Shown here: positions 19,940 to 53,364 of the stretch, in pieces
Position numbering within the stretch: position 1 is the first letter of the stretch
Layout of the letters: each line of letters opens with the position of its first letter
Assembly: GCF_030252345.1 (NCBI RefSeq)
Contig: NZ_CP126980.1
Coordinates: 5,285,501-5,349,500, forward strand
Direction: 5' to 3'
DNA: 64,000 nucleotides
DNA from: Actinoplanes oblitus
Lineage (GTDB): Bacteria > Actinomycetota > Actinomycetes > Mycobacteriales > Micromonosporaceae
Notes under the pieces: model-generated
What the model was told of the DNA's origin: nothing
Seen by the model: the letters and a program-made list of their open reading frames with translations, nothing else
The model's database searches: none
Made by a program: the position numbers and the translations under genes

Positions 19940-19953
19940 GGGCCGGACGGCCC
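19940..19953. promoter_or_regulatory. DosR-like box 1
   Basis: GGGCCGGACGGCCC, perfect 6-2-6 palindrome, about 70-83 bp upstream of pntAA. Fits GGG-H-C-N4-G-K-CCC shared by twelve sites in the island. Confidence 0.65.
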
Positions 19954-19972
19954 GATGTTCCGGCCCGCCGGT

Positions 19973-19986
19973 GGGCCGTTCGGCCC
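19973..19986. promoter_or_regulatory. DosR-like box 2
   Basis: GGGCCGTTCGGCCC, perfect 6-2-6 palindrome, 33 bp from box 1 centre to centre (about three helical turns) and 55-68 bp upstream of the DUF4389 gene. Paired boxes are typical for DosR-controlled promoters. Confidence 0.68.
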
Positions 19987-20040
19987 TGCCGGACCACGCC
20001 GTGCGGGGTTGTCCTGAGAGAAACCCCCTTGGGAGGCGTG

Positions 20041-21486
20041 ATGAACTACAGTCCCGTGCGGGTCGAGGCACGTCGCGACCCGTCGCTGAGCCGCTGGCTA
20101 TGGCTGGTCAAGTGGCTCCTGCTGATCCCCCACTACATCGTCCTGGCGGTGCTCTGGGTCGGTCTGCTGGTGCTCACCCTGGTGGCCTACCTGGCGATCC
20201 TGTTCACCGGCCGCTATCCGCCGTCGATCCGCGCCTACAACGTCGGGGTGCTGCGCTGGACCTGGCGGGTCGGCTACTACGGCTACCAGGCGCTGGGCAC
20301 CGACCGATACCCGCCGTTCACCCTGGCCGAGGTGCCCGATCACCCGGCCCGGTTCGCGGTCGGTGAGCCGGAGCCGGTCCCCCGGTGGCTGCCACTGGTG
20401 GCCTGGCTGTTCGCCGTGCCGCACCTGGTGCTGATCGGCGCGCTCACCTCCGCCGTCACCTGGCACACCCCGGACGGCTACCGCACCTCGATGAGCGTGC
20501 TCGGCGCGGCGGTGCTGATCCTCGGGCTGGCCCTGCTGTTCACCGGGCGGTACCTGGACGGGCTGCACGATCTGCTGGTCGGCGTCGCCCGCTGGCAGCT
20601 GCGGGTGATCGCCTACCTGACCTTGCTGACCCCGCGCTACCCGCCGTTCCGGCTGGACCAGGGCGGTTCCGAACCCGTCGCCGGACCGTCCGGTCCGACC
20701 GCCGTGGACTCGCCCACCGCGCCGCACTACCGGTCCGGACCGGACGTTCCCACCGCACCGCCCAGGTCGTCGGCGGCCGGTCACGTCATCGCGCTGGTCG
20801 CCGGCGTGCTGCTGCTGGCGCCCGCGACCGGGCTGGGCATCGGCGGCGCCGCGCTGCTGGCGGTGGACGCCGCGCGGGACAGCTCCGGCTATGCGACCAG
20901 CCGGACCGTCGGGCTGCACACCGCCACCGCCGCGGTCACCGCGGAGAATCTCACCATCGCCGACGTCGACGTGTGGACCCGCGACGTCGCCGACGTCGGA
21001 GGTCTGCGGCTGACCGCGACCGCGCCGGACGGCCGCTCGCTGTTCGTCGGCATCGCCCCGCAGGCGGCGGTCGACCAGTGGCTCGCCGGCACCGCCCACG
21101 ACGAGCTCGTCGCGATGGGCCTCGGCGCGGCGCGCTACCACCGGGCCGCGGGACCGGTGACCGGGGTGCCCGCTCCGGCCGAGCAGCGGTTCTGGCTCGC
21201 CTCGGCCAGCGGCCCCGGCACCACCACGCTGAACTGGAGGATCACCGGCGGGCAGTTCGCCGTGGTGGTGGCCAACGCCGACGGGTCGCCCGGTGTGATC
21301 GCCGACGTCCGGGGCGCCGCTCAGGTGCCCGACCTGACCGCGCTCGGGCTGGGCCTGTTGATCTCCAGCATCGTGCTCGGCCTGGTGGCCGTCGGCCTGA
21401 TCGTGCTCGGCGGGGTCGGGCTCGGCCGCCGGCATCTCCCGCCGCCCGCACCGACGGCGGTGCCGTTGTCGACCGTCTCGGTATGA
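20041..21486 (+). CDS. DUF4389 membrane protein
   Basis: 481 residues. Two DUF4389-like units follow each other: one at the N-terminus (LSRWLWLVKWLLLIPHY, AILFTGRYPPSIRAYNVGVLRW) and one near residue 115 (VPRWLPLVAWLFAVPHLVL, LLFTGRYLDGLHDLLVGVARW), each ending in a RYPPF motif. Then come a disordered Pro/Thr linker, a helix near 255, an extracellular domain and a final helix. Start ATG 20041 follows TTGGGAGGCG. Function is unknown. The two DosR-like boxes upstream put it in the stress regulon. Confidence 0.88.
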   Translation: MNYSPVRVEARRDPSLSRWLWLVKWLLLIPHYIVLAVLWVGLLVLTLVAYLAILFTGRYPPSIRAYNVGVLRWTWRVGYYGYQALGTDRYPPFTLAEVPDHPARFAVGEPEPVPRWLPLVAWLFAVPHLVLIGALTSAVTWHTPDGYRTSMSVLGAAVLILGLALLFTGRYLDGLHDLLVGVARWQLRVIAYLTLLTPRYPPFRLDQGGSEPVAGPSGPTAVDSPTAPHYRSGPDVPTAPPRSSAAGHVIALVAGVLLLAPATGLGIGGAALLAVDAARDSSGYATSRTVGLHTATAAVTAENLTIADVDVWTRDVADVGGLRLTATAPDGRSLFVGIAPQAAVDQWLAGTAHDELVAMGLGAARYHRAAGPVTGVPAPAEQRFWLASASGPGTTTLNWRITGGQFAVVVANADGSPGVIADVRGAAQVPDLTALGLGLLISSIVLGLVAVGLIVLGGVGLGRRHLPPPAPTAVPLSTVSV

Positions 21487-21538
21487 GCCGCGGTCCGGAC
21501 CTGCCGGCGGCCCACAGCCGCCGGCAGGCTGCCGCCAC

Positions 21539-21554
21539 ACTTCGAATTCAAAGC
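21539..21554. promoter_or_regulatory. MarR operator copy 1 (autoregulation)
   Basis: ACTTCGAATTCAAAGC matches the palindrome GCTTCGAATTCGAAGC at 22337 with two differences. It lies just upstream of the -10 box of the marR-type gene. Confidence 0.75.
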
Positions 21555-21557
21555 AAG

Positions 21558-21563
21558 TAGGAT
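21558..21563 (+). promoter_or_regulatory. -10 box of a probable leaderless promoter (marR)
   Basis: TAGGAT, then 6 bp, then the GTG start at 21570, with no ribosome-binding sequence. The operator at 21539-21554 covers the spacer, so repressor binding would block polymerase. Confidence 0.6.
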
Positions 21564-21569
21564 CACGGC

Positions 21570-24664: not shown

Positions 24665-24686
24665 GGACGGGCCGTCCGGCCCGTCC
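24665..24686. promoter_or_regulatory. DosR-like box 3 (before gltD-like/nifJ)
   Basis: Core GGGCCGTCCGGCCC (24669-24682) is perfect 6-2-6, and symmetry extends to 10-bp arms (GGACGGGCCG) around TC. It lies 88-110 bp upstream of the ATG at 24775 and divergent from the HATPase gene. Best-conserved box in the island. Confidence 0.7.
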
Positions 24687-24774: not shown

Positions 24775-26414
24775 ATGCCGAAGAAGAATCCCGCCGGTGA
24801 CATGACACCGCTGCCCGACCTGGCACACGACCAGGCCCGCGGCGGTCCGGTCCGGCAACGCCGCCCGGTCTACGTCGACCTGCTGCCGCCCTGCAACGCG
24901 GGCTGTCCCGCCGGGGAGAACATCCAGGCGTGGCTGGCGCACGCGCGCGGCGGCGACTACCAGGCTGCCTGGCGGGTGCTGACCGCCGACAACCCGCTGC
25001 CCGCGATCTGTGGCCGGGTCTGCTACCACCCGTGCGAGTCGGTCTGCAACCGGATCCAGCTGGACAGCGCGGTCTCGATCCACGGTGTCGAACGGTTCCT
25101 CGGCGATCTGGCGCTGGAGCACGGCTGGGCCTTCGATCCCCCGCCGGCACCGACCGGGCGCCGGGTCCTGGTGGTCGGTGCCGGGCCCTCCGGGCTGTCG
25201 GCCGCCTACCACCTGGCCCGGCTCGGTCACCAGGTGGTGATCCACGACGCGGGTGACGAGCCGGGCGGGATGATGCGCTACGGCATTCCCGCCTACCGGC
25301 TGCCGCGCGATGTCCTGGCCGCCGAGATCGCCCGGATCGAGGCGCTCGGCGTGGTGATCGAGACCGGCCATCCGGTCCTGGACCTGGCGGCGGAACGCCG
25401 GGCCGGGCGCTTCGACGCCGTGTTCGTCGCGGTCGGGGCGCATCTGTCCAAGCGGGTCGACATCCCGGCCCGCGAGGCCGGGCGGATCGTCGACGCGGTA
25501 GGCCTGCTGCGTAGCGTCGCCGCCGGCGAGCGGCCGGTGATCGGGCGGCGGGTGGCGGTGTACGGCGGCGGCAACACCGCGATGGACGCCGCCCGGGTCG
25601 CCAAGCGGCTCGGGGCCGAGGAGGCGCTGATCGTCTACCGGCGGACCCGGGCGCAGATGCCCGCGCACGCCGAGGAGGCGGACGACGCCGAACGCGAAGG
25701 CGTGAAGATCAACTGGTTGCGGACCATCCAGGCGTTCGACGGGCCGGAACTGACGGTCGAGGTGATGGAGCTGGACGCGGACGGCCGGCCGGTGCCGACC
25801 GGGCGTACCGAAATCCTGGCGGCCGACACCGTGGTGCTCGCGCTCGGGCAGCGCGCCGACACCGCGTTCCTGCGGGGGGTGCCCGGCGTCGAGTTCGGCG
25901 CGGACGGCACCGTGCTGGTGTCGGCGTCGTTCATGACCGGCTCCGCCGGCCTGTTCGCCGGCGGGGACATGGTGCCCGCCGAACGCACGGTGACCGTCGG
26001 GATCGGGCATGGCCGCAAGGCGGCCCGGCACATTCACGCCTACCTCTCCGGCAGCGGCGCGGCGGCGCCCGCCAAGCACCCGCTGGCCGGCTTCGACCTG
26101 CTGCACCCGTGGTATTTCGGCGACGCGGACCGCCGGGTCCAGGACGAACGCGATCCAGCCACCCGGACTGCCGACTTCACCGAGGTGGTCGGCGGTCTGA
26201 ACGCGACGGCCGCCCGGTTCGAGGCCGGCCGCTGCCTGTCCTGCGGCAACTGCTTCGAATGTGACGGGTGCCTGGGCGCCTGCCCGGAGGACGCCGTGAT
26301 CAAGCTGGGGCCGGGCAACCGGTACCGGTTCGACTACGACCGCTGCACCGGATGCGGCACCTGCTTCGCGCAGTGCCCGGTGCACGCGATCGACCTGATT
26401 CCGGAGGCACACCC

Positions 26415-26418
<4 letters not shown>
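24775..26418 (+). CDS. GltD/NfnB-like NAD(P)-dependent flavoprotein with two extra 4Fe-4S clusters
   Basis: 547 residues. N-terminal iron-sulfur helical domain with CNAGCPAGENIQAW and CGRVCYHPCESVC, then the two-dinucleotide-fold body: FAD site VLVVGAGPSGLSAAYHLARLG near residue 125, NADPH site VAVYGGGNTAMDAARVAKRLGA near 262, and FAGGD near 400. A C-terminal ferredoxin domain has two 4Fe-4S motifs (CLSCGNCFECDGCLGACP and CTGCGTCFAQCP). Start ATG 24775 follows GGAGGAGG. Its ATGA overlap with nifJ implies electron exchange between pyruvate:ferredoxin oxidoreductase and NADP(H) rather than glutamate synthesis (inference); no GltB subunit is present. Confidence 0.92.
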
Positions 26419-29963
<3,545 letters not shown>

Positions 29964-29979: not shown

Positions 29980-29993
29980 GGGCCGATCGGCCC
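29980..29993. promoter_or_regulatory. DosR-like box 4
   Basis: GGGCCGATCGGCCC, perfect palindrome, 80-93 bp upstream of the deazaflavin-type gene at 30073. Confidence 0.65.
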
Positions 29994-30072: not shown

Positions 30073-30783
30073 ATGTTGCTATCCCAGGCGGCCCGGCGAC
30101 GGATGTACCGCGGCGGCCGCCCCGACCGCGTGGCCCGATGGCTCAACCGGCTCTCCGCGGCCCAGTTCTCGGCCGGCTTCCTGACCCCGGCCACCTGGGT
30201 GACGCTGGAGGTGACCGGCCGGCGCAGCGGACGGACCATCTCGTGCCCCCTCGTGGTGACCCGCTATCGCGGGGAGCGCTACCTCGTCGCGATGCTCGGC
30301 CGGCGAGCCAACTGGGTGGCGAACGTGCGCGCCGCGGACGGGACGGTGGTGCTGCGACACGGCGATCGGGAGGAGGCCCGGCTGGTCGAGGTCGAGCCGC
30401 GGGACCGGGCGCCGATCCTGCGCGCCTTCCTCGCCGCGGCACCCGGTGCCCGGGCGCACCTGCCCGTGGACCGGCACGCCGCACTCGCCGACTTCGCCCG
30501 GATCGCCGACGACTACCCGGTGTTCCGGATCATCACCTCCGGCCGCCCGGCCGAGCATCACCGGCCGGCCGGCCGGCGAACCTGGGGTGAACTGTCCCCC
30601 GCGCAGCGAACGGCAGTTCTGGTTCTGGGCTCGGTGGAGGTGGCCCTGACCGTGACGGCCGCGCTCGACCTGGCACGCCGACCGGCGGGAGAGGTCCGGG
30701 GACCGAAGGCGCTGTGGTGGCCGGCGTTGCTGGTGCAGCCGATGGGCCCGCCGTCGTACCTGGTGTGGGGCCGCCGGCGCTGA
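30073..30783 (+). CDS. Deazaflavin-dependent nitroreductase-like protein fused to PLDc_N-type helices
   Basis: 236 residues. Residues about 20-160 resemble the F420H2-dependent Ddn/split-barrel family (TLEVTGRRSGRTISCPLVVTRYRGERYLVAMLGRRANWVANVRAADG). The C-terminal 65 residues hold two membrane helices ending GPKALWWPALLVQPMGPPSYLVWGRRR, the pattern of the PLDc_N (cardiolipin-synthase N-terminal) domain. The fusion would tether an F420 reductase to the membrane, near quinones (inference). Start ATG 30073 follows TAGGAGG. Confidence 0.85.
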   Translation: MLLSQAARRRMYRGGRPDRVARWLNRLSAAQFSAGFLTPATWVTLEVTGRRSGRTISCPLVVTRYRGERYLVAMLGRRANWVANVRAADGTVVLRHGDREEARLVEVEPRDRAPILRAFLAAAPGARAHLPVDRHAALADFARIADDYPVFRIITSGRPAEHHRPAGRRTWGELSPAQRTAVLVLGSVEVALTVTAALDLARRPAGEVRGPKALWWPALLVQPMGPPSYLVWGRRR

Positions 30784-32122: not shown

Positions 32123-34756
32123 CTACGAACGCTCGGCGCCGTAGAAGGCGGCCCGCATCAGCTCCCGCATGTCGGCGAGCATCGGCATCCGCGGGTTGGC
32201 CGGGGCGCACTGGTCCTCGTACGCGTTGAGCGCCTGCTGCGGCAGTGCCGCGAGGAACGCCTTCTCGTCGACGCCGAGCGCGGCGAACGACGGCTCGATG
32301 CCGACCGCGTCGCGCAACCGTTCAACGGCGGCCGCCAGGGACTCCACCGCCTCGGCCGGGGTGGCCGCGGGCAGGCCGAGCATCGCGGCGATGTCGGCGA
32401 AGCGCTCGGGTGCCCGGTAGTTCTCGTACTTCGGCCAGCCGGACAGCTTCGACGGGGTGCTGCCGTTGTAGCGGATCACGTGCGGCAGCAGGACCGCGTT
32501 GGTCCGCCCGTGCGCGAGGTGGAAGGTGGCCCCGAGGGTGTGCGACATGGCGTGCACGATGCCGAGGAACGCACTGCCGAACGCCATCCCGGCGATGGTG
32601 CCGGCGTTGTGCATCCGCTCCCGGGCCTCGCCGTCGCCGTGCACCACCGACTTCTCCAGGTTGGCGAAGATCAGCCGGATGGCGTGCAGGGCCAGGCCGT
32701 CGGTGAAGTCGTTGGCGTAGACCGACACGTACGCCTCGATCGCGTGGGTGAGCGCGTCGAACCCGCTGTCCGCGGCGATCACCCGGGGCAGGCTGGCGGT
32801 CAGCGCCGGGTCGACGATCGCCACGGTCGGGGTCAGCGCGTAGTCGGCGAGCGGGTACTTCTTGCCGGTGCGGTGGTCGGTGATGACCGCGAACGGGGTC
32901 ACCTCGGCGCCGGTCCCGGAGGTGGTCGGGATGCAGACCAGCCGCGCCTTCTCCCCCAGGGTCGGGAAGGTGAACGCCCGTTTGCGGATGTCGAAGAACT
33001 TCTCCCGCATGTCGGCGAAGTCGACCTCCGGGTGCTCGTACTTGAGCCACATCACCTTGGCCGCGTCCATCGCCGAGCCGCCGCCGAGCGCGATGATGGT
33101 GTCCGGGTGGAACGAGCGCATCAGCTCGGCGCCGCGTTCCACGGTGGTCATCCGGGGTTCCGGCTCCACGTCGTCGATGATCTGCAGGACCACCCGGTTC
33201 GGCCGGTTCTGCAGCACCCGGTCGATGCGCTCGACGAAACCCAGCCGGGTCATCGTCTCGTCGGTGACCACGGTGACCCGGGCGACGTCCGGCATGTCGC
33301 TCAGGTAACGGATCGCGTGCGGCTCGAAGTAGATCTTCGACGGCACCTTGAACCACTGCAGGTTGTTGGTACGCCGGCCGATCCGCTTGACGTTGATCAG
33401 GTTGACCGCCGACACGTTGTTGGACACCGAGTTGTGCCCGTAACTCCCGCAGCCCAGGGTCAGCGAGGGCAGGAACGCGTTGTACATGTCGCCGATGCCG
33501 CCCTGCGAGGCCGGCGAGTTCCAGATCACCCGTACCGCCTTCACCCGCTGGCCGAACTCGACGACCAACTGCTCGTCCGCTGTATGGATCACGGCGCTGT
33601 GGCCCAGCCCGTGGAACTCCACCATCTGGGTGGCCGCGCGCACCCCCTCCTCCCGGGAGTGCACCCGCAGGACCGCGAGGACCGGGCACAGCTTCTCCCG
33701 GGTCAGCGGCTCGCTCGGGCCGACCTCGGCGACCTCGGTGAGGATGATCGAGGTCTGCGGCGGCACGGTGAACCCGGCCTGCTCGGCGATCCAGGCCGCG
33801 GACTGCCCGACCACCCGCGGGTTGAGCTTGGCGCCGTCGCACGCGGTGCCGAACGCCGCGACCCCGAAGATGAACTCCTCCAGCAGTCGCTTCTCCTCGG
33901 CGGTGGCGAGGTGGGCGTGCAGACCGCGGAACTCGTCCAGGGCGGCGTCGTAGATCTCGTCGTCGATGATGGCGGCCTGCTCGGAGGCGCAGATCATGCC
34001 GTTGTCGAAGGACTTCGACAGCACGATGTCGTTGATCGCCCGGGGAAGTTTCGCGGTCGCCTCCACGTAGGCGGGCACGTTCCCGGCGCCGACGCCGAGG
34101 GCGGGCTTGCCGGCCGAGTACGCCGCCCGCACCATGTTGTTGCCGCCGGTGGCCAGGATGGTCGCGACGCCCGGATGGTGCATGAGGGCCGTGGTGGCCT
34201 CGACCGACGGGTGCTCGATCCACTGCACGCAGTCCGCCGGCGCGCCGGCGGCGACCGCGGCGTCCCGCACGACCCGGGCCGCCTCGGCGCTGCACCGCTG
34301 CGCGGCCGGGTGGAACGCGAACACGATCGGGTTACGGGTCTTCAGCGCGATCAACGCCTTGAAGATGGTCGTCGAGGTCGGGTTGGTGACCGGGGTGATG
34401 CCGGCGACCACGCCGACCGGGTCGGCGATCTCGGTGACCCCGGTGATCTCGTCGTGGCTGATCACGCCGACCGTGCGCAGCTTCGCCATGCTGTGCGTGA
34501 CGTGCTCGCAGGCGAAGATGTTCTTGACCGCCTTGTCCTCGAAGACGCCCCGGCCGGTCTCCTCGACGGCCAGCTGGGCCAGCGCGGCATGCCGGTCGAG
34601 AGCCGCGACCGACGCCTTCTTGACGATGTAGTCGATCTTCTCCTGGTCGAACGAGTCGTACTCGGCGAGCGCCTTGAGCGCGGCGGTCACCAGGGTGTCC
34701 ACCTCGATGGCGACGTCGGAGGGCACAGGTTGCGGGCCCGATCGCTGAGCGGTCAC
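32123..34756 (-). CDS. adhE: Bifunctional acetaldehyde-CoA/alcohol dehydrogenase
   Basis: Reduces acetyl-CoA to acetaldehyde and ethanol, regenerating NAD+ during fermentation. 877 residues: N-terminal acetaldehyde dehydrogenase domain with catalytic C256 (NGMICASEQA) and the NAD-binding linker, then the iron-dependent alcohol dehydrogenase domain (ALGGGSAMDAAKVMWL, PTTSGTGAEVTPFAV, DALTHAIEAYVS, FLGIVHAMSHTLGATFHLAHG with iron-ligand histidines). Start GTG 34756 follows GAAGGAGG; the frame is open 28 codons further. AdhE together with NifJ gives a pyruvate-to-ethanol route. A DosR-like box lies 78 bp upstream. Confidence 0.96.
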   Translation of the reverse strand: MTAQRSGPQPVPSDVAIEVDTLVTAALKALAEYDSFDQEKIDYIVKKASVAALDRHAALAQLAVEETGRGVFEDKAVKNIFACEHVTHSMAKLRTVGVISHDEITGVTEIADPVGVVAGITPVTNPTSTTIFKALIALKTRNPIVFAFHPAAQRCSAEAARVVRDAAVAAGAPADCVQWIEHPSVEATTALMHHPGVATILATGGNNMVRAAYSAGKPALGVGAGNVPAYVEATAKLPRAINDIVLSKSFDNGMICASEQAAIIDDEIYDAALDEFRGLHAHLATAEEKRLLEEFIFGVAAFGTACDGAKLNPRVVGQSAAWIAEQAGFTVPPQTSIILTEVAEVGPSEPLTREKLCPVLAVLRVHSREEGVRAATQMVEFHGLGHSAVIHTADEQLVVEFGQRVKAVRVIWNSPASQGGIGDMYNAFLPSLTLGCGSYGHNSVSNNVSAVNLINVKRIGRRTNNLQWFKVPSKIYFEPHAIRYLSDMPDVARVTVVTDETMTRLGFVERIDRVLQNRPNRVVLQIIDDVEPEPRMTTVERGAELMRSFHPDTIIALGGGSAMDAAKVMWLKYEHPEVDFADMREKFFDIRKRAFTFPTLGEKARLVCIPTTSGTGAEVTPFAVITDHRTGKKYPLADYALTPTVAIVDPALTASLPRVIAADSGFDALTHAIEAYVSVYANDFTDGLALHAIRLIFANLEKSVVHGDGEARERMHNAGTIAGMAFGSAFLGIVHAMSHTLGATFHLAHGRTNAVLLPHVIRYNGSTPSKLSGWPKYENYRAPERFADIAAMLGLPAATPAEAVESLAAAVERLRDAVGIEPSFAALGVDEKAFLAALPQQALNAYEDQCAPANPRMPMLADMRELMRAAFYGAERS

Positions 34757-34833: not shown

Positions 34834-34847
34834 GGGCCACTGGTCCC
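34834..34847. promoter_or_regulatory. DosR-like box 5 (before adhE)
   Basis: GGGCCACTGGTCCC, four of six arm pairs complementary, 78-91 bp upstream of the adhE start. Confidence 0.5.
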
Positions 34848-34928: not shown

Positions 34929-34942
34929 GGGACTCCCGGCCC
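34929..34942. promoter_or_regulatory. DosR-like box 6 (before VOC gene)
   Basis: GGGACTCCCGGCCC fits GGG-H-C-N4-G-K-CCC and retains the mycobacterial half GGGACT. It lies 62-76 bp upstream of the VOC-family gene. Confidence 0.5.
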
Positions 34943-35004: not shown

Positions 35005-35367
35005 ATGACCAACGCGGTCGTGCACTGGGAGATCGGCGGCCCGAACCTGCCCGAGCTGCGCGACTTCTACGCCAAGGCCTTCGGCTGGACGATCGACGAC
35101 GCGAGAGAGGACTACTGCCTGGTACGCCCGGTCGCCGACGGGACCGGCGGTGGCCTGATGCAGACCCGTGAGCGGATGCTGCCCTACGTGACGATCTACA
35201 TCGACGTCCTGGACCTGGATGCCGCGCTGAAGACCATCACCGGCCTGGGCGGTGACCTGCTGACCCCGCCCACCCGCATCAACGACTCCCTGTCGTTCGC
35301 GCTGTTCCAGGACCCGGCCGGCAACGCGATCGGTCTGCTGCAGGGCGAGCCGATGACCGCCGCTTGA
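35005..35367 (+). CDS. VOC-family (glyoxalase-like) protein
   Basis: 120 residues with a vicinal-oxygen-chelate fold: HWEIGGPNLPELRDFYAKAFGW opens the first module and VTIYIDVLDLDAALKTITGLGGDLLTPP, FALFQDPAGNAIGLLQ the second. Such small stand-alone proteins act as dioxygenase- or glyoxalase-like enzymes or binding proteins; the substrate cannot be inferred. Start ATG 35005 follows GAGGTGA. Divergent from adhE, sharing the boxed promoter region. Confidence 0.9.
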   Translation: MTNAVVHWEIGGPNLPELRDFYAKAFGWTIDDAREDYCLVRPVADGTGGGLMQTRERMLPYVTIYIDVLDLDAALKTITGLGGDLLTPPTRINDSLSFALFQDPAGNAIGLLQGEPMTAA

Positions 35368-38332: not shown

Positions 38333-38346
38333 GGGACCAAGGTCCC
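38333..38346. promoter_or_regulatory. DosR-like box 7
   Basis: GGGACCAAGGTCCC, a perfect 6-2-6 palindrome and the copy nearest to the mycobacterial form GGGACTTTAGTCCC, 53-66 bp upstream of the small membrane protein. Confidence 0.68.
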
Positions 38347-39142: not shown

Positions 39143-40171
39143 CTAGGCCTGTGGCGCCGGGAAGGGCAGGACGGTTGGTCCCGTCGGCCGGGGTCCATCG
39201 GCCGCGCGGAGCAGCACCTCGGACAGCGCCCGGCGCGGGCTGCCGCCGGGCGTCTGCACGCGGCCGTAGCCGACGCGCACCACCAGTTGCGGCGACATGC
39301 CCGGCGTCCGGGCGGCCAGCGTGGCACGCACCGCGGGCGCCTCGATCGGCTGGCTGATCGGCATGGTGGCGAGGCCCAGCCAGGTAGCGGTCAACAGGAC
39401 TCGTTGCAGCGCCTGCCCGGCACGCAGCCAGTCGAGCCGGGTGTCCCCGCCGGTGGCCAACACCATGATCGTCGGGTAGGGCTCGAACGGCTCCGGGGCC
39501 GGCTGGCGCCGCGCCCGCGTCGCGAAGTCGCGGACCGGTACCACCTCGAGGGCGTCCCACGGGCCGGCCGCCCACACCGGTACCCCGTCGTGCCGCCGAC
39601 GGCCGGTCCAGTCGCCGAGTTCTGCCCGGTAACCAGGCTGGTCGCGCAGCCAGCGATCGGCGGCCCGGGCCAGGTCGAGCACCGCGTCCCGACCGACCGG
39701 GTCCGCGACGGTCAGCACCGCGCCCTCCCGGCGGGCGGCGTCCCGGAGCCGGCCGAGCTGGTCGGCGGGCACCGGCACCTGCGCGAACGGCCAGCGGTTG
39801 GTGTGCCGGTACGGGATCGCCGCGGCGAGCGCCTCGGCCGGCGGGTCGACGGCCAGGGCCCGGGTCGCGGTGACCCGGGCGGCCAGCGTCGGCTGGTCCG
39901 GGTCGGGCAACAGGTCGCAGCGCGTGTCGTAGCCGGCCCCGCGCACCGCCGCCCGCAGTGTGAACACCGCAGCGCCCACACTTATCAGCAGCTCCCGGCC
40001 GTCCGGGTCCACCACCGGCAGTCGCCGGGACGGGTCGGCGTACACGTCGACGTGCGGGCCACTGATCCGGAACAGCCACGGCTGACTGTTGTGCAACGAC
40101 GGCGCGGTCATCGCCGAGCGAACGCAGTCGGTGAGCACTCCCCGCGACGGCGGGACGAAGGAAACGTTCAT
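39143..40171 (-). CDS. Acg-type nitroreductase family protein
   Basis: 342 residues resembling Mycobacterium Acg (Rv2032), a nitroreductase-fold member of the DosR regulon: SAMTAPSLHNSQPWLFRI at the N-terminus, RELLISVGAAVFTLRAAVRGAGY, IPYRHTNRWPF and GQALQRVLLTATWLGLATMPISQPIE. In Acg-like proteins the FMN site is occluded and the function may be flavin storage rather than catalysis. Start ATG 40171 follows GAGGAGG; the longer in-frame extension is not conserved. First gene of a two-gene operon with the CBS-BON gene. Confidence 0.9.
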   Translation of the reverse strand: MNVSFVPPSRGVLTDCVRSAMTAPSLHNSQPWLFRISGPHVDVYADPSRRLPVVDPDGRELLISVGAAVFTLRAAVRGAGYDTRCDLLPDPDQPTLAARVTATRALAVDPPAEALAAAIPYRHTNRWPFAQVPVPADQLGRLRDAARREGAVLTVADPVGRDAVLDLARAADRWLRDQPGYRAELGDWTGRRRHDGVPVWAAGPWDALEVVPVRDFATRARRQPAPEPFEPYPTIMVLATGGDTRLDWLRAGQALQRVLLTATWLGLATMPISQPIEAPAVRATLAARTPGMSPQLVVRVGYGRVQTPGGSPRRALSEVLLRAADGPRPTGPTVLPFPAPQA

Positions 40172-40223: not shown

Positions 40224-40237
40224 GGGTCTTTGGTCCC
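40224..40237. promoter_or_regulatory. DosR-like box 8
   Basis: GGGTCTTTGGTCCC, A/T-rich centre as in the mycobacterial consensus, 53-66 bp upstream of the Acg-type gene and 69-82 bp upstream of the divergent gene at 40306. Confidence 0.55.
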
Positions 40238-43225: not shown

Positions 43226-43574
43226 CGGGCCACCTCCGCTTCGGAGCCCCCGAGTCTCACCACCAGAGTAGGCCGCCATCCGCGCCACGGCTCCCGCCTC
43301 GATCCTCCGATCCCCACAAACATCAAAACCCGCCTCGTGTACGCCCGGAGCACAGTCCCGCCCGTCCCCGTCGCGTCGCACCCATCCACGCCGGACCGCC
43401 GCGCGGCCCCGGTCCCCAGGCGGTCAGACCATCGCCCGGGCGCTGCTGCCCAGGCCGTACCCGATGACCCCTCTGTCCGGGCCGGCGGGACCTACGGCCC
43501 TGGCCTCTCCCAACCGGCCGGCGGGACGCTGGCGGTGAGCGACGCGGGAACTCGACGCGAAGAAGGTGGCCGCC
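43226..43574. other. Gene-free 349-bp spacer
   Basis: Divergent promoter region between the DUF3040-like gene and the M50 protease gene. Apart from the box at 43487-43500 I see no gene or clear element. Short open frames here lack ribosome sites and codon bias. Confidence 0.5.
43487..43500. promoter_or_regulatory. DosR-like box 9
   Basis: GGGACCTACGGCCC, 75-88 bp upstream of the M50/CBS protease gene, first gene of a four-gene operon. Confidence 0.5.
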
Positions 43575-44729
43575 ATGCGGCAGAGCATCAGGCTCGGCAC
43601 GGTCCGCGGGATTCCGGTGGGTGTCCACTGGTCCGTGCTGGTCATTGTCTTCCTGCTGACCTACAGCCTGGCCGCGGTCCAGTTGCCCGCGGCGGCGGCC
43701 GGGTACCCCACGGTCGCCTATTGGCTGACCGCCGGCTGGATGGCGGTGCTGTTCCTGACCGCTCTGGTCGGGCACGAGCTGGCGCACGCGCTGGTCGCGC
43801 AGCACTACCGGATCAGGGTCCAGTCGATCACGTTGTGGGCCCTGGGCGGCGTCTCGACGCTCGACGAGCAGGCCAGCCATCCGCGGGCGGAGCTGTTCAC
43901 CGCGCTGGCCGGGCCGGTCACCAGCCTGGCCGCCGCCGGGCTGTTCGCCGCCGCGACGATCCCGGCCGGGCTGCTCGGCTCGGACCTGCCCCGGCTCGGC
44001 TGCTCCTGGCTGGCCGTGGCCAACCTGGTGCTCGCGGTGTTCAACCTGCTGCCCGGCGCGCCGCTGGACGGCGGCCGGATCCTCACCGCGATCGTGTGGT
44101 GGAGCCGCGGCGACCGGGCCGCGGCCCGACGGGCCGGCGCGCGGGCCGGCGGGTTGCTCGGCCTGGTCCTGGCCGGCCTGGGGGTGGTCCTGGTCTTCGG
44201 CTACACCGCCACCGGCGGGCTGTGGCTGATCGTACTGGGCTGGTATCTCAGCTTCGCCGCCCGCGCCGAACTCGCCACGGCCGTGGTGAGTGAGCAGTTG
44301 CGGGGCGTGCCGGTACGCGCGGCCATGTCCCGCCCGGCGGTCTGCGGGTACGCCGGGCACACCGTCACCGAGTTCGTGGCGCACACCGCACGGTTGTGCC
44401 CGCACCAGAGCTATCCGGTCGTCGACCTGGACGGCCGGCTCGCCGGCCTGGTCACCGTCGACGCGCTGATGGCGGTACCACCGGAGCACCGGGTGATCAC
44501 CAGGCTGGCCGAGGTGATGGCGCCACGCGCCCGGCTGCGCGCCGTGCACCCGGACGAACCGTTGCTGGGCGTGGTCGGCGCGCTGAACAACCCGGCGCGG
44601 CTGCTGGTGGTGGTCGAGCAGGACCGCCCGTGCGGGGTGCTCACCACCGGGGACGTCGCCCGCCTGGTGGGGGTGGCCCAGCTCGGGGTCGCACCGGCCG
44701 GCCGGGTCGACGTCAGCACGGTCGGTTGA
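43575..44729 (+). CDS. M50 site-2-type metalloprotease with CBS pair
   Basis: 384 residues, resembling Mycobacterium Rv2625c of the DosR regulon. About six helices; zinc motif HELAH at 67-71 (H67, E68, H71) in [14 protein letters not shown] and the third ligand in [10 protein letters not shown] near residue 160. The C-terminal CBS pair begins at [18 protein letters not shown] and ends [12 protein letters not shown]. Likely cleaves membrane anchors in response to an adenylate signal. Start ATG 43575 after AAGGTGG; GTG 43566 is an alternative. Confidence 0.92.
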
Positions 44730-47457: not shown

Positions 47458-47471
47458 GGGACCCGTGGCCC
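47458..47471. promoter_or_regulatory. DosR-like box 10
   Basis: GGGACCCGTGGCCC, 61-74 bp upstream of the GNAT/acyl-CoA synthetase gene. Confidence 0.5.
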
Positions 47472-47531: not shown

Positions 47532-50252
47532 ATGACGATGACGAGTATGCCGATCATCAGCGATCCCGACGGCGCCGACGCGCTGGCCTCCGATGGTGGC
47601 ATCGTCACCATCCGGCCGGTCCGGCCGGGCGACCGGGGAGCGCTGGCCGGGCTCTATGCCGGGGCGTCACGGGAGAACCTGTTGCTGCGGTTCTTCATCG
47701 TGCCGGGCCGGCTGACGATCGCCGCCGAGCTGGATTCGCTGTGCCGGCCGGAGACCCGGGACCGGCTCACCGTCGTCGCCTGGCAGGCCACCGAACTGAT
47801 CGGGGTCGCCTCCTGCGTCCGCCTCGACGCCGGCAGCCGGATGGCCGAGATCGCCGCGTTCGTCGCCGACGAACACCACGGACGCGGCATCGGCACCCTG
47901 CTGCTGGAACACCTGGCCGCCCGGGCGAAGCGGGTCGGCATCACCGACTTCGTCGGGGAGATGCTGCCCGGCAACATCGGTGTGCTGCGGATGGTCCATG
48001 ATTTCCACGAGCACACGCACACCCAGACCCGCGCCGGGTATGTCGACCTGAACATCGATCTCACCGACCAGTTCGCCTTCGAGCGGGCCGTCGACGCCCG
48101 GGACCGGCTCGCCGAGCGGGCTTCGCTGCGCCCGCTGCTCGCGCCCCGCTCGGTGGTGGTGATCGGCGCCGGGCAGCGGCACGGCACCGCCGGACACGAG
48201 ACGCTGCGGGCGCTGCGCGACTACGGTTTCGCCGGCCGGCTGTACGCGATCAATCCAGCCGGCCGTCCGGTCTGCGGACTCCCGGCCCATCGCCACGTCG
48301 GTGACCTGCCGGAAGCCGTCGATCTGGCGGTCATCACGGTGCGTGCCGAGCTGGTGCCCGGCGCGCTCAAGGAGGCGGGTCAGCGAGGGGTGCGGGCGGC
48401 GGTCGTGCTCAGCAAGGGGTTCGGCACGTCCGGGCCGGTCGGCCGGCAGCGGCGCGCCGACATGCTGCGGATCGCCAGGGAGCACGGCATACGACTGGTC
48501 GGTCCGAGCAGCATCGGGGTGCTCGGCACCGGTGCGCAGCTGCGGCTCAACGCCTGCCTGTCCCCCATCCGGCCGCCGGCCGGCGGTCTGGCGGTCGCCA
48601 CCCAGTCCGGGACGGTGGGCATCGCGCTGCTGGCGAACGCCGCCCGCAGCGGATGCGGCATCTCCAGCTTCGTGTCGCTGGGCGAGAAGCTCGACGTCAG
48701 CGGCAACGATCTGATCGCGTACTGGTACGACGATCCGGACACCCAGGCGGTCGCGCTCTACCTGGAGTCCTTCGGCAATCCGCGCCGGTTCGCCCGCACC
48801 GTCCGGGCACTCGGCCGCCGTAAGCCGGTGCTGGCGTTGGAGACCGGGCGATCGCTCGCCGCCCGGCACACCGAGGCCGCCACCCCGGAGTTGATGGACG
48901 CCCTGTTCACCCAGGCGGGCGTCATCCGGGTCACCGGCATCGACGAGATGCTGGACACCGCGCGGATGCTGATCGGCCAGCCGCAGCCGGCCGGGACCCG
49001 GCTGGCGATCGTCGGCAACGGCGGTGGGCTGACCGCGCTGGCCGCCGACCACGCCGTGGCGGGCGGCTTCACGCTGGTGCCGCTCAGCCGCGACACCCGC
49101 CGTCAGCTTCCCCGCGGTCGCGACAACCCGGTGGATCTCGGCATCGAGGCCACCCCGGCGACAATCGCGGCGGCCGCCGAGACCATCGCGAACAGCGGCG
49201 AGGCCGACATCCTGCTGCTCATGATCGTCGGTACCCGGGCCAACTGTTCGGTGGGGACGATGGCCGCCCTCGCCGAGGTGGTCGACAATCATCCCGACAT
49301 CACCATCGCGGCCGTGTTGACCGGCAGCAACGACGACATCCAGCGGTTCGGGGCGCGGGGCGCGCCGGTCTTCGCGCAGCCGGAGCCGGCGATCCGGGCC
49401 CTCGCGCATGCCCAGCGGTACGCGCGGTGGCAACGGCAGCCACTGGGCCGGCACCCCGACCTGCCCGGCATCCAGCGGGCGCGGGCACGGACCCTGATCG
49501 CACAGGCGCTGGCGACCGGGCCGGGCTGGCTGCCGCGGATCCGGGTCGCGGCGCTGCTCCGGGCGTACGGGATCTCGCTCGTGCCGGCGTCCGCGGCCCG
49601 GACCGGAGTCGACGCGGTCGCCGTGGCCGAGCGTCTCGGCTTTCCGGTGGTGTTGCGCTCCGCTCACCCGGCACCGGATCGGGTGACAACGGTCCGGCGC
49701 GACCTGTCCAGCGCGGCCGCGGTCCGGGACGCCTTCGACGCGGTGATCGGGAACTGCCCGGGGCCGACCGGCGTGCTGCTCCAGCGGCAACTCGCGGCGC
49801 CGGTCGAACTGGCCGCCGGCATCCGGCATGATCCGCTGTTCGGTTCCCTGGTACGGCTCGGGCTGCACGACGGCTGGACCGGGCACACCGCGCGCCTGGT
49901 GCCGCTCACCGATCTCGACGCCGGCCGGATGTGGCGGGATCTGCCAGCCGCGGCGTCGTCCGGCCCGCGCCGGCTGGCGCAGCTGCTCGACACGTCCGTC
50001 TTGGAGGATCTGCTGCTGCGGCTGGGCCGCCTGGCCGAGGACCATCCGGAGATCGCCGAGCTGGACCTCGCGCCGATCTTCGCCGGGCCGGACGGGGTGC
50101 TGGTCGCCGACGCGCGGATCCGGCTCGCCGCGGTCGGCGCCGAACCGGACGCCACCCTGCGCCGGCTCTCCCCGGTCGCCCTGCCGGCCGCTCCGGCCCG
50201 GCCGGAACGCGGGACGTTGGACTCTGTCCGCGGCACCCGGGCGGCCTCCTAG
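47532..50252 (+). CDS. GNAT domain fused to ADP-forming acyl-CoA synthetase
   Basis: 906 residues. GNAT domain at about 20-170 (VTIRPVRPGDRGAL, DEHHGRGIGTLLLEHLAARAK), CoA-binding Rossmann domain from about 200 (VVVIGAGQRHGTAGHETLRAL), two succinyl-CoA-ligase-like domains (ATQSGTVGIALLANAA, IVGNGGGLTALAADHA) and a C-terminal ATP-grasp domain (FPVVLRSAHPAPDRVTT). Enteric Pat protein acetyltransferases carry the same parts with GNAT last; here it is first. It may acetylate metabolic enzymes or form ATP from acetyl-CoA; the catalytic His of the ligase part was not located. Start ATG 47532 after GAAGG. Confidence 0.92.
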   Translation: MTMTSMPIISDPDGADALASDGGIVTIRPVRPGDRGALAGLYAGASRENLLLRFFIVPGRLTIAAELDSLCRPETRDRLTVVAWQATELIGVASCVRLDAGSRMAEIAAFVADEHHGRGIGTLLLEHLAARAKRVGITDFVGEMLPGNIGVLRMVHDFHEHTHTQTRAGYVDLNIDLTDQFAFERAVDARDRLAERASLRPLLAPRSVVVIGAGQRHGTAGHETLRALRDYGFAGRLYAINPAGRPVCGLPAHRHVGDLPEAVDLAVITVRAELVPGALKEAGQRGVRAAVVLSKGFGTSGPVGRQRRADMLRIAREHGIRLVGPSSIGVLGTGAQLRLNACLSPIRPPAGGLAVATQSGTVGIALLANAARSGCGISSFVSLGEKLDVSGNDLIAYWYDDPDTQAVALYLESFGNPRRFARTVRALGRRKPVLALETGRSLAARHTEAATPELMDALFTQAGVIRVTGIDEMLDTARMLIGQPQPAGTRLAIVGNGGGLTALAADHAVAGGFTLVPLSRDTRRQLPRGRDNPVDLGIEATPATIAAAAETIANSGEADILLLMIVGTRANCSVGTMAALAEVVDNHPDITIAAVLTGSNDDIQRFGARGAPVFAQPEPAIRALAHAQRYARWQRQPLGRHPDLPGIQRARARTLIAQALATGPGWLPRIRVAALLRAYGISLVPASAARTGVDAVAVAERLGFPVVLRSAHPAPDRVTTVRRDLSSAAAVRDAFDAVIGNCPGPTGVLLQRQLAAPVELAAGIRHDPLFGSLVRLGLHDGWTGHTARLVPLTDLDAGRMWRDLPAAASSGPRRLAQLLDTSVLEDLLLRLGRLAEDHPEIAELDLAPIFAGPDGVLVADARIRLAAVGAEPDATLRRLSPVALPAAPARPERGTLDSVRGTRAAS

Positions 50253-50281: not shown

Positions 50282-51337
50282 ATGTCCGTGATCCGCGCAG
50301 AGGACCTGCACGATCTCGCTTGCCTGCACGATCCCACCGGTGTGCTCTCGGTGTACGTCACCGTCGGTCCGCACGGGGAGACGGCCGTTCCGGCGCCCTG
50401 GCAGGTGGGCGTCCCGCATCTGCTGGCCGAGCTGGGCCGGCGGGCTCCGGCCACCCTGCGGCACCGGCTCGACCTGCTCGAACCGGAGCTCAAGACGCTG
50501 CTGGACATCACGACGGTGGGCCGTGGCCGGGCGCTGTTCGCCACCGTGGACGGCGGGGACATACGCCTGATGCGGGTGCAGTCGGCGCTGACGGACACCG
50601 TCCGGTTCGGCGAGTCGGCGTACTTGGGTCCACTCGCCGCCGCGTACAGCCAGGCGTCGCCGGCCGGGATCGTCGCCGTGAGCGGGCACGGCGTACGGGT
50701 GGTGGATTACCGGCTCGGGCAAGCCGAACAGGTGGGGGCCGCGGACTACCGGCCGGGCACCCCGCCGCGGGCGTCGAACCGGCGTGGTGGCGCCCAGCGC
50801 GACCGGCAGGACCGGCGTTGGACGGTCCACCTGGAGCGCTTCCTCACCGCCAGCGGTTCCGGGCTCGCCCGGCTCGGCGCCCGCCCGGACTGGGAGCATC
50901 TGCTGGTGACCGGCGACACCGATCTGGTCGCGGCGTTCGTCGCGCGACTGCCTCACCTGCCGCACACCGAAGTGCTCACCGCCCACCACGTGGTCGCCGC
51001 CGGGCTGCCGGTGCCCCGGATCGCCGCCCTCGTGGCGACCGAACTCCGAGTGGCCCGGGAGGACACGCACGTGCGACTGGCCGTGACGGCTCGCGACACC
51101 GCACACGCCGGTGGCGCGGCGACTGCCGGGCCCGGCGATACCGCGCGGGCCGCGGCGCAGGGCCGGATCCGGCGTCTGCTGCTGGACGGCTCCGCCCGGC
51201 ACGGCACAGGAACCGACCTGGCCGAGCTGCTGATCGAGCGGACCTACCGCGCCGGCGGTGCCGTCACCCTCGTCGGCGGCACGGCCGCCCAGTCCCTGGC
51301 CGGCTGCGGGGGCGTCGCAGCCCTGCTGCATCCCTGA
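50282..51337 (+). CDS. Rv2629-like protein (eRF1/Vms1-like fold family)
   Basis: 351 residues. It begins with LHDLACLHDPTGVLSVYVTVGPHG and contains GRALFATVDGGDIRLMRV, PLAAAYSQASPAGIVAVSGHGVRVVDYRLG and GTGTDLAELLIERTYRAGGAVTLVGGTAA, the pattern of the actinobacterial Rv2629 family, related to archaeal/eukaryotic release-factor-like domains. In M. tuberculosis this gene belongs to the DosR regulon and lies close to Rv2625c; here both homologues lie within 8 kb. Possibly a ribosome- or tRNA-acting dormancy factor (inference). ATG 50282 after GGAGGTGA. Confidence 0.88.
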   Translation: MSVIRAEDLHDLACLHDPTGVLSVYVTVGPHGETAVPAPWQVGVPHLLAELGRRAPATLRHRLDLLEPELKTLLDITTVGRGRALFATVDGGDIRLMRVQSALTDTVRFGESAYLGPLAAAYSQASPAGIVAVSGHGVRVVDYRLGQAEQVGAADYRPGTPPRASNRRGGAQRDRQDRRWTVHLERFLTASGSGLARLGARPDWEHLLVTGDTDLVAAFVARLPHLPHTEVLTAHHVVAAGLPVPRIAALVATELRVAREDTHVRLAVTARDTAHAGGAATAGPGDTARAAAQGRIRRLLLDGSARHGTGTDLAELLIERTYRAGGAVTLVGGTAAQSLAGCGGVAALLHP

Positions 51338-51342
51338 TCTGG

Positions 51343-51394
51343 CGCCGTTCGCGCCGCACGCCGGGCCGCGGCCCGGCGTGCGGCGCGAACGGCG
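51343..51394. terminator. Perfect 52-bp palindrome, bidirectional terminator
   Basis: The 26 bases 51343-51368 are exactly complementary to 51369-51394, with no loop spacer. It fills the 59-bp gap between convergent genes (stops at 51337 and 51397), begins 5 bp after one stop and ends 2 bp before the other. Almost certainly a terminator for both. Confidence 0.8.
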
Positions 51395-51396
51395 GT

Positions 51397-51813
51397 TCAC
51401 GAATGCTGATCGGAGACCGCGTCGGCGTAGAGGAAGTCCTTGACGTTCAGCCGCCGCCACACCCAGCGCCGGGCGGGCCGCACCCGCGGCAGTGCCTGGT
51501 CGGGACCGATCACCTGGAAGCCGGTGAGGGTGGAACGCCGCCCGTGCAGGTCGATCGTGGCCCGGCCGGCCGCGCGCAGGTTGCGCTGCCAGTCCACCCC
51601 GCTGCCGTAGGGCATCGGGATCAGGAAGCCACCGGGCACCGGCTCGGCGACCACCGGGGTGGTGTAGGCCCGGCCCGAGTTGCGGCCGGTGTGGTGCAGC
51701 GCCGCGGCATACCAGTGCCGCCGGCCCGCCATCGTCCGCATCACCGGATTCAGTACGCGTTTGGTGAACTGCCGCACCGCCTCGTGGTGGTGGGTGTCCT
51801 TACTGGTCGGCAC
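51397..51813 (-). CDS. Deazaflavin (F420)-dependent nitroreductase family protein
   Basis: 138 residues of the Ddn/AclJ split-barrel family: LHHTGRNSGRAYTTPVVAEPVPGGFLIPMPYGSGVDWQRNLRAAGRATI is the diagnostic stretch. These proteins reduce quinones or nitro compounds with F420H2. Start GTG 51813 follows GGGAGGGG; the longer frame is the antisense of nothing useful. Starts 13 bp after the stop of the adenosine-specific kinase gene, so the two form one operon. Confidence 0.9.
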   Translation of the reverse strand: MPTSKDTHHHEAVRQFTKRVLNPVMRTMAGRRHWYAAALHHTGRNSGRAYTTPVVAEPVPGGFLIPMPYGSGVDWQRNLRAAGRATIDLHGRRSTLTGFQVIGPDQALPRVRPARRWVWRRLNVKDFLYADAVSDQHS

Positions 51814-51826
51814 GGCCCCTCCCGAG

Positions 51827-52315
51827 TCAGAGCTTGTAGCCGAGTTCCCGCAGCAGCGTGTGCCGCTCGGCGGCGTCGGCGTCACTTTCGATCCCCAGGG
51901 GCGTGCCGCCGTCCAGCACTGCCGCGACGCCACGCGCACCCTGGACGGTTGCCACGACGACCCCGATCGGGTTGGCGGTGGCACACCAGATGCCGCACAC
52001 CTCCGGCACGGCCTTGACGGCGTTGAGCACGCTGACCGGGTACCCGCCACGCAACATGACGACGAAACTGTGGCCGGCCCCGATCTGCTCGGCGGCCCGG
52101 CAGGCGCTGGCCTGCAGCTCCTGGTCGTTGCCGCTGTGCCGGATCAGGCGGGCACCGGACGCCTCGCAGAACGCGATGCCGAACCGCAGGTGCGGCCCGG
52201 TCCCGGCGATCACTTCGAAGAGGTCTTCGACGGTCTTGACGAAATGCGCCTGGCCGAGGATGACATTGGCGTCCGCGGGCTTGTGCAGGTTGACGAAGTC
52301 GAAATCGATACCCAT
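51827..52315 (-). CDS. Adenosine-specific kinase family protein (DUF355)
   Basis: 162 residues. FVNLHKPADANVILGQAHFVKTVEDLFEVIAGTGPHLRFGIAFCEASG, HSFVVMLRGGYPVSVLNAVKAVPEVCGIWCATANPIGVVVA and the terminal ELGYKL match the small archaeal/bacterial adenosine-kinase-like family throughout. It may handle adenosine during energy stress. ATG 52315 is preceded by GAGAGGGGTGAG. DosR-like box 11 lies 48-61 bp upstream. The F420-type gene follows in the same operon. Confidence 0.9.
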   Translation of the reverse strand: MGIDFDFVNLHKPADANVILGQAHFVKTVEDLFEVIAGTGPHLRFGIAFCEASGARLIRHSGNDQELQASACRAAEQIGAGHSFVVMLRGGYPVSVLNAVKAVPEVCGIWCATANPIGVVVATVQGARGVAAVLDGGTPLGIESDADAAERHTLLRELGYKL

Positions 52316-52360
52316 GGCATCTCACCCCTCTCCAGTCTCGGGTCGGGCAGGAACCCCCCG

Positions 52361-52378
52361 TAGGGCCGGAGGTCCCTA
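52361..52378. promoter_or_regulatory. DosR-like box 11
   Basis: Core GGGCCGGAGGTCCC at 52363-52376 with TA flanks completing TAGGG...CCCTA arms. Between the adenosine-kinase-like operon and the broken sulfide:quinone oxidoreductase gene. Confidence 0.55.
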
Positions 52379-52424
52379 CCGGCGCACCCCCTTCGCACAT
52401 GCCCCGGGGGGGTATCAGGAGGTG

Positions 52425-52809
52425 GTGACGGTGCGTCGGCTACTCGTCCTGGGCGCGGGACCGCGGGCACCATGGTGGTCAACAAACTGCGCCGCGACCA
52501 TTGGCGGATCACCGTCGTCGAGGCCGGGGACCGGCACTTCTACCAGCCGGGCTTCCTTTTCGTACCGTTCCGGACCTACACCCCGAAGCTGGTGTCGAAG
52601 CCCACCGAGCGGCTGATCGCCGACGGCGTCGAGCCGCGATCGACTTCCTGCGCCGTGACTACGCGGCGCAGGGCGAGACCGCGACACTGCGCCGGGTCTC
52701 GATCGCCGGCGGCATACCGGTCAAGGAGCTGTTCGCGCTCTTCCTCACGAAGCCGGCGAAGAAGATGGCCTACATCGGCGGCCTGCCCAAGCCACACGGC
52801 TGCGTCTGA
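52425..52809 (+). pseudogene. Sulfide:quinone oxidoreductase-like remnant, two frame breaks
   Basis: Starts like a real gene, GTG 52425 after CAGGAGG, and reads VRRLLVLGAG (FAD-binding loop). A one-base shift near 52460 leads to GTMVVNKLRRDHWRITVVEAGD and FYQPGFLFVPFRTYTP, typical of FCC/SQR flavoproteins. Near 52636 the frame changes again to AIDFLRRDYAAQGETATLRR and LPKPHGCV, then stops; this tail is not the SQR end I expect and I could not assign it. The catalytic cysteines and second dinucleotide fold are absent. A decayed sulfur-metabolism gene before the DsrE-like gene. Confidence 0.75.
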
Positions 52810-52823
52810 CAGGAGGTCACACC

Positions 52824-53336
52824 ATGACCAGCGACGCCGCGCCGGCCCTCGTCCCGGACTTCGGCGACGAGCGGAGCACCGGCCGCAAACTCGCCATCAT
52901 CTGCTCCAAGGGCGACCTCGACATGGCCTACCCCGCCCTGGTGCTGGCCAATGCCGCCCTCGGCGAGGGCGTGGAGACACACCTCTTCTTCACCTTCTGG
53001 GGCTTCGACATGATCACCAAGACGCGGATGGCGGACCTCAAGTTCACCATGCTCGGCAACACCGCCACCCACCTTCCCCAGGGCCTGGGCGGGCTACCCG
53101 GGATGACCGCGCTGGCCACCCATCGCATGCAGGACCAGATCGCTGCCATCGGCGTGCCCGAGGTGCCGGAATTCCTCGACCAGATCGTCGACTCCGGCGG
53201 CCACCTGTGGGCCTGCCGGATGTCCGCCGGCATGATGCGGCTGACCCGCGACGACCTCTACGACGGCGTCGAGGACGTCATCAACGCGTCCGACTTCATC
53301 GAGAAGACCGCCGGCGCCCAGCTGCTGTTCATCTGA
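52824..53336 (+). CDS. DsrE/DsrF/DrsH-like protein
   Basis: 170 residues. KLAIICSKGDLDMAYPALVLANAALGEGVETHLFFTFWGFDMI opens the fold, and the conserved cysteine in LWACRMSAGMMRLTRDDLYDGVEDVINASDF is the likely persulfide carrier. Such proteins transfer sulfur between SQR, TusA and sulfur-oxidising enzymes. ATG 52824 follows CAGGAGGTC. With the SQR-like gene broken, its original partner is lost. Confidence 0.92.
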   Translation: MTSDAAPALVPDFGDERSTGRKLAIICSKGDLDMAYPALVLANAALGEGVETHLFFTFWGFDMITKTRMADLKFTMLGNTATHLPQGLGGLPGMTALATHRMQDQIAAIGVPEVPEFLDQIVDSGGHLWACRMSAGMMRLTRDDLYDGVEDVINASDFIEKTAGAQLLFI

Positions 53337-53350
53337 CGCCCGCCGGCGAC

Positions 53351-53364
53351 GGGACGTTCGGCCC
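53351..53364. promoter_or_regulatory. DosR-like box 12
   Basis: GGGACGTTCGGCCC, five of six arm pairs match, 68-82 bp upstream of the CoA-binding protein gene. Confidence 0.55.

Follow-up and report, generated by a model that had tools for sequence, protein, structure and literature searches.

A 64-kb stretch of the Actinoplanes oblitus genome carries twelve 14-bp palindromes that resemble the operators of the mycobacterial dormancy regulator DosR (also called DevR). This stretch, hereafter the window, comprises bases 5285501–5349500 of a genome that is one contig of 9,807,870 bp, and positions below are counted from its first base. The palindromes had been proposed in a first-pass annotation as twelve intergenic DosR-type sites; all proved letter-exact at their coordinates, all (12/12) fit GGG-H-C-N4-G-K-CCC, which shares the DosR-type skeleton as that annotation had said, and all lie between called genes. 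Gene calls were made with a codon-usage caller written for this analysis, which called 57 genes in the window and is distinct from the official annotation. The centre of each site lies 54–114 nt upstream of the nearest start codon, so that a palindromic GGG-N-C-N4-G-N-CCC element stands upstream of a clustered gene set. The sites and the genes around them are listed here, with conservation given for G010, whose AdhE (96%) marks it as the nearest relative.

15928–15941: candidate thirteenth site, GGGACAGCCGACCC, before g11; outside the aligned part of G010, hence weaker
16038–16880, plus strand: universal stress protein g11 (Pfam Usp)
17080–19870, minus strand: three NAD(P) transhydrogenase subunit-like genes, g13–g15 (g13 and g15 below the curated NCBIfam cut-off; g15 with Pfam AlaDh_PNT domains)
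19940–19953: site GGGCCGGACGGCCC, between g15 and g16; identical in G010
19973–19986: site GGGCCGTTCGGCCC, between g15 and g16; core conserved in G010
20041–21486, plus strand: DUF4389 protein g16 (Pfam)
24669–24682: site GGGCCGTCCGGCCC, between g20 and g21; core conserved in G010
24775–26418, plus strand: NAD(P)-binding Fe-S protein g21 (NF009410, over cut-off)
26415–29963, plus strand: pyruvate:ferredoxin (flavodoxin) oxidoreductase (PFOR) g22 (TIGR02176, over cut-off)
29980–29993: site GGGCCGATCGGCCC, before g23; equals the core of the published OsdR consensus
30073–30783, plus strand: F420H2_quin_red-domain gene g23 (Pfam)
32123–34726, minus strand: bifunctional acetaldehyde-CoA/alcohol dehydrogenase AdhE, g26 (NF010378, over cut-off)
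34834–34847: site GGGCCACTGGTCCC, between AdhE and g27; identical in G010
34929–34942: site GGGACTCCCGGCCC, between AdhE and g27; identical in G010
35005–35367, plus strand: glyoxalase-like protein g27 (Pfam)
38333–38346: site GGGACCAAGGTCCC, before g31, a small unknown gene; one core base changed in G010
39143–40171, minus strand: Acg family FMN-binding oxidoreductase g33 (NF047509, Rv3131 family, over cut-off)
40224–40237: site GGGTCTTTGGTCCC, between g33 and g34; identical in G010
43487–43500: site GGGACCTACGGCCC, before g38; core conserved in G010
43566–44729, plus strand: M50 peptidase with CBS domain, g38 (Pfam)
47458–47471: site GGGACCCGTGGCCC, before g42; identical in G010
47547–50252, plus strand: GNAT and acyl-CoA ligase-like protein g42 (Pfam domains; TIGR02717 below cut-off)
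50282–51337, plus strand: baeRF family 10 protein g43, hibernation-factor-like (Pfam over cut-off; NF052288, MSMEG_1130 family, far below cut-off)
51827–52315, minus strand: Adenosine_kin-domain protein g45 (Pfam)
52363–52376: site GGGCCGGAGGTCCC, before g45; one core base changed in G010
53351–53364: site GGGACGTTCGGCCC, before g47; one core base changed in G010
53433–53918, plus strand: CoA_binding protein g47 (Pfam)

Plus-strand matches of the pattern number 13, namely the twelve sites and one at 3481 inside a coding gene, while one further minus-strand match, at 15928, is intergenic and ahead of the Usp gene. No intergenic match occurs in positions 1–15900 or 53365–64000 of the window. Arms of the CCG and ACC types are both present, and the 7-bp arms form between 4 and 7 of 7 pairs, the inner bases varying without full pairing being kept. 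Usp and Acg-type genes, recognized with Pfam and NCBIfam, are among the predicted targets, in keeping with the dormancy-type gene content first described for the window. The hibernation-factor-like g43 directly follows the site-preceded acyl-CoA ligase-like g42; it matches the ribosome hibernation factors of the MSMEG_1130 family weakly (115 bits against a cut-off of 480).

The palindromes exceed chance expectation

When the intergenic DNA of the window was simulated 300 times with a second-order Markov model, 0.32 matches arose on average and never more than 2, against the 12 observed. Across the 9,807,870 bp of the genome, the pattern GGGHCNNNNGKCCC occurs 221 times in forward orientation; the rate in the rest of the genome predicts 1.37 forward matches per 64 kb, compared with 13 in the window (Poisson, 2.6e-9). 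Gaps between genes hold 12 sites in 5,589 bp in the window versus 1 in 57,573 bp in control gaps, which were drawn from 20 stretches (388 kb), one deliberately shortened to 8 kb so as to avoid the regulator locus described below. The reversed pattern has 817 forward matches against the 221, making the real pattern about 3.7 times rarer, and composition therefore overestimates the background. The roughly five chance matches per 64 kb first estimated for the window correspond to the reversed-pattern rate, the true background being about fourfold lower. The rarity of GGGHCNNNNGKCCC relative to its reversed form might stem from codon effects or from avoidance of stray sites.

An independent matrix was built from 25 16-mers for the Streptomyces coelicolor regulator OsdR in Table 1 of PMC5069765, possibly not all that the table contains; being derived from published sites, it avoids the circularity of scoring the twelve with themselves. 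Its top seven hits in the 64 kb were all among the twelve. The matrix recovers CCG-type sites well but is poorer at the ACC type.

Elsewhere in the genome, with clusters excluded and four listed places omitted, 61 exact matches were checked in 60 stretches, of which 18 lay between called genes and 43 within genes. Single matches are thus mostly noise, and the signal resides in clusters and conserved promoters. Genes flanking the 18 intergenic extra sites, named by eye, include a zinc-type alcohol dehydrogenase (L177) and a Usp gene (L168).

A DevR orthologue with its own site, and two GAF kinases

The window contains none of the genome's 87 GerE-domain matches. That a NarL/LuxR-type regulator would be encoded outside it had been anticipated, and a DevR/DosR orthologue was found about 2.57 Mb away (L001:17159-17794), reached through a site cluster at 2.71 Mb and recognized by its GerE match and the open reading frame list. 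Its top PDB match is Mycobacterium tuberculosis DevR (residues 1–207, E = 6.6e-76), with the next family, VraR, at E = 2.6e-42; the only match to it within the window is a response regulator at genome base 5321598 (E = 1.4e-6). Receiver Asp54 and residues Lys179, Lys182 and Asn183, the last three reported as base-contacting in M. tuberculosis DosR (PMC4082495), are all present. The four residues are kept in 80/80 relatives, a biased count as AEKTVKNY was among the six search words that found those loci. The named relatives closest by regulator belong to Paractinoplanes, Winogradskya and Actinoplanes (93–94% protein identity).

The regulator gene is divergent from a GAF histidine kinase gene, and a second GAF histidine kinase is encoded at 5.42 Mb; the best PDB matches of both are to DosT/DevS GAF-A. 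Both contain HHPPM, in which the histidine before PPM is predicted to be the proximal heme ligand, placed by counting alignment positions against His149 of DosS (PMC4082495), as expected of DosS/DosT-type kinases.

The regulator has a site in its own promoter, GGGACCTTCGACCC, which begins 50 nt upstream of its start. A site lies within 300 nt upstream of the regulator at 27/80 orthologue loci from a collection of named genomes, against 3/80 for the reversed pattern. At the 21 loci that we take, from genus names, to be Micromonosporaceae, 17 have a site, 14 of them at −49 to −51.

Many other DevR-like regulators are encoded in the genome, at 35–44% identity to the orthologue. Two other places were considered and rejected. 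One, a NarL-type gene close to the match at 6412757 (L018), encodes a protein only 41% identical to the orthologue, and that match is intragenic. A DosR-like stretch at 4.27 Mb (L338:8113-8496; G000 4270113-4270496), 63% identical over residues 83–210, is missing the first part of the receiver and has no site in its 18-kb locus; it lies about 5 kb from a second narG (G000 4275469), beside a gene named by eye as hemerythrin-like.

Predicted targets elsewhere in the genome

Beyond the window, sites or site-rich regions accompany a set of respiratory, fermentative and glycolytic genes:

L002: narG and a NarK-like transporter (below cut-off), site-preceded
L004:520-1716, just right of the window: enolase, site-preceded
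L007:7353-8141: phosphoglycerate mutase, in a site-rich region
L007:13623-16223: pyruvate phosphate dikinase, in the same site-rich region
L007: [NiFe] hydrogenase-like operon (matches below cut-offs), with GGGCCGGAAGTCCC 56 nt before its first gene
L008:11716-12732: glyceraldehyde-3-phosphate dehydrogenase, site-preceded
L011: cydAB and a Usp gene, sharing two sites
L012: pta-ackA, site-preceded
L015: pyruvate formate-lyase (PFL) and its activase, site-preceded

Enolase, glyceraldehyde-3-phosphate dehydrogenase, phosphoglycerate mutase and pyruvate phosphate dikinase suggest a low-oxygen set of glycolytic enzymes. Control of the hydrogenase-like operon is ambiguous, since GGGCCGGAAGTCCC lies inside the end of the preceding gene.

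Conservation in relatives

Strict sites were counted in the 400 nt or less before orthologues at the best-scoring fetched loci, with the reversed pattern as control:

CydA: 22/28 relatives (reversed 5), 20 of the 22 at −70 to −74
PFL: 19/29 (reversed 6)
NarG: 15/29 (reversed 2), made up of 15/22 close orthologues and 0/7 paralogues at 63–66%
AdhE: 13/29 (reversed 2)
Pta: 12/29 (reversed 1), all at −48/−49
PFOR-operon gene: 3/16 (reversed 2)
Proteasome ATPase, negative control: 0/29 (reversed 0/29)

A conserved PFOR-operon site was thus rejected. Of 60 genomes searched, the numbers with a match at E ≤ 1e-100, in some only a paralogue, were: AdhE 39, PFL 41, PFOR-operon gene 17, NarG 36, Pta 60 and CydA 60. 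In one of them (G051, 7085613-7087660) PFL matches as two separate pieces and is possibly a broken gene. The ‘1 TGA’ flags on AdhE in many relatives raised the possibility of selenocysteine, which was dismissed after realignment of 30 loci: apart from a single stop at the far C-terminus none was internal, and the TGA is the ordinary stop codon.

Most of the island is kept in order in G010, with sites in the corresponding gaps; 92/95 aligned core bases are identical there, versus 1059/1318 of the remaining gap positions. In another relative, G048 (4044001-4064000; L150), AdhE stands in a different gene order with 6 intergenic sites in 20 kb, and Acg-type relatives are included.

Discussion

We think it very probable, from the sequence comparisons above, that the twelve palindromes serve as operators for the DevR/DosR/OsdR orthologue encoded in this genome, a regulator that would be activated under hypoxia or nitric oxide (NO) through the heme-GAF kinases. 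Falling oxygen, or rising NO, would lead one or both kinases to phosphorylate the regulator, whose dimer would bind GGG-N-C-N4-G-N-CCC at 54–114 nt before the start codon and switch on the downstream gene. Within the window, the targets would be the stress proteins, the Acg oxidoreductase, the hibernation-factor-like protein, and the pyruvate-breakdown and ethanol-forming enzymes; those beyond it would include cytochrome bd, nitrate reductase, phosphate acetyltransferase–acetate kinase and pyruvate formate-lyase. At the level of sequence, the clustered sites and their recurrence in relatives, the regulator with a site of its own, and the kinases are all in place. Binding, the oxygen or NO signal, and activation rather than repression we infer by analogy, the activation chemistry from kinase through regulator to palindrome being known from mycobacteria and Streptomyces (PMC4082495, PMC5069765).

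Several observations weigh on the other side. By the OsdR matrix, from the published sites of Table 1, site 38333 ranks only fourteenth and sites 34834, 34929, 40224 and 47458 score below 7, and the pattern alone is unspecific, as the 43 intragenic matches show. Each of 38333, 52363 and 53351 has a changed core base in G010, in which 15928 is not alignable, and AdhE is kept with no intergenic sites in G049 (60 kb) and G021 (20 kb). Among the counts in relatives, the PFOR site barely exceeds its reversed control, the AdhE site is seen in fewer than half, and PFL has a high reversed control. The negative control is one gene, far more conserved (96–99%) than the test genes, and the relatives are non-independent samples.

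The first-pass annotation was right in outline, and it is in proposing a diverged regulator that we find it unsupported. On that proposal, a different NarL/LuxR-type protein with a GC-shifted specificity uses all of the sites, or the CCG/CGG subset. Coexisting CCG and ACC arms and the abundance of GerE-domain and DevR-like proteins noted above would suit it, but the DNA-contacting residues of the DevR orthologue equal those of M. tuberculosis, and even the best of the other full-length candidates encoded there resemble DevR far less. Nor is the GC-shifted form a new consensus: AGGGCCGATCGGCCCT, the published Streptomyces OsdR consensus, already carries CCG/CGG arms, and gel-shift binding of OsdR was reported at predicted sites of both arm types as well as at mycobacterial DevR targets (PMC5069765). 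Arms absent from known systems together with altered contact residues, which would mark a diverged regulator, were thus not found; because the GC-shifted form is the OsdR consensus and Lys179, Lys182 and Asn183 are unchanged, no such regulator is needed, and we regard it as unlikely.

Two further alternatives both seem to us highly improbable: that GC-rich intergenic DNA yielded the palindromes by chance and the eye then picked them out, or that they are inverted repeats whose role lies in RNA hairpins, as terminators or leader structures, and not in binding a protein. A ten-position pattern derived from the sites themselves could recur by accident in DNA of 72% GC, and most matches elsewhere are intragenic; against this stand the Markov expectation, the gap densities, the independent OsdR matrix and the conservation in relatives. 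Palindromes can fold, and those at 29980 and 53351 start 17 and 15 nt past the end of the preceding gene, as terminators might, but all twelve lie ahead of a start codon, the distance to the start is near-fixed for cydA, pta and devR in relatives, and the arms vary without full pairing.

Streptomycetes carry anaerobic enzymes yet cannot grow without air, the ‘anaerobic paradox’ (PMC5069765, Discussion), and in Streptomyces lividans the available account left undecided whether co-expression of cydAB with the OsdR regulon is direct or indirect (PMC6302529). It is possible, and we propose it tentatively, that in this genus the dormancy regulator is a general aerobic-to-anaerobic switch that directly activates the whole low-oxygen energy programme, which would let supposed strict aerobes ferment and not only sleep. 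That programme would comprise cytochrome bd, nitrate reductase, extra glycolytic enzymes, PFL, PFOR, AdhE and Pta-AckA, and perhaps the [NiFe] hydrogenase. We found no paper on a DosR-type hypoxia regulon or on anaerobic pyruvate formate metabolism in Actinoplanes in the collection of open-access papers searched, and the titles and opening lines of abstracts of further papers pointed to none on such a regulon. With the cydA sites in relatives and those at fermentation genes, both the paradox and the cydAB link become open to direct test, here outside the pathogens, in a soil bacterium; the predicted target list merits a bench test.

Oxygen-linked regulation before PFL, AdhE, nitrate reductase and cytochrome bd genes is familiar from FNR/ArcA-type control in enterobacteria. 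That system works alike only; its protein families and sites differ, and we claim no membership in it.

A close likeness is to OsdR/OsdK of S. coelicolor (SCO0204/SCO0203; PMC5069765), which shares the core GGGCCGATCGGCCC, sites of both the CCG and ACC types, a devR-type regulator with its own site, and Usp, Acg-type nitroreductase, alcohol dehydrogenase, pyruvate phosphate dikinase and nitrate reductase genes near or under sites. Its predicted core regulon lies largely around osdR, whereas in A. oblitus about 2.57 Mb separate the regulator from the island, and the PFL, PFOR, AdhE and pta-ackA sites found here are not among the rows of its Table 1 that were consulted.

The less expected feature of the A. 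oblitus system would be its predicted reach into fermentation and cytochrome bd. With DosR(DevR)/DosS/DosT of M. tuberculosis, the A. oblitus system shares an orthologous regulator, two DosS/DosT-type GAF kinases, one of them beside the regulator, and Acg and Usp genes; the mycobacterial core GGGACTTTAGTCCC, as quoted in the first-pass annotation, occurs before narG in a relative (L378). Unlike the M. tuberculosis regulon, it belongs to a soil bacterium, CCG/CGG arms are common among its sites, and those sites stand at fermentation and cytochrome bd genes.

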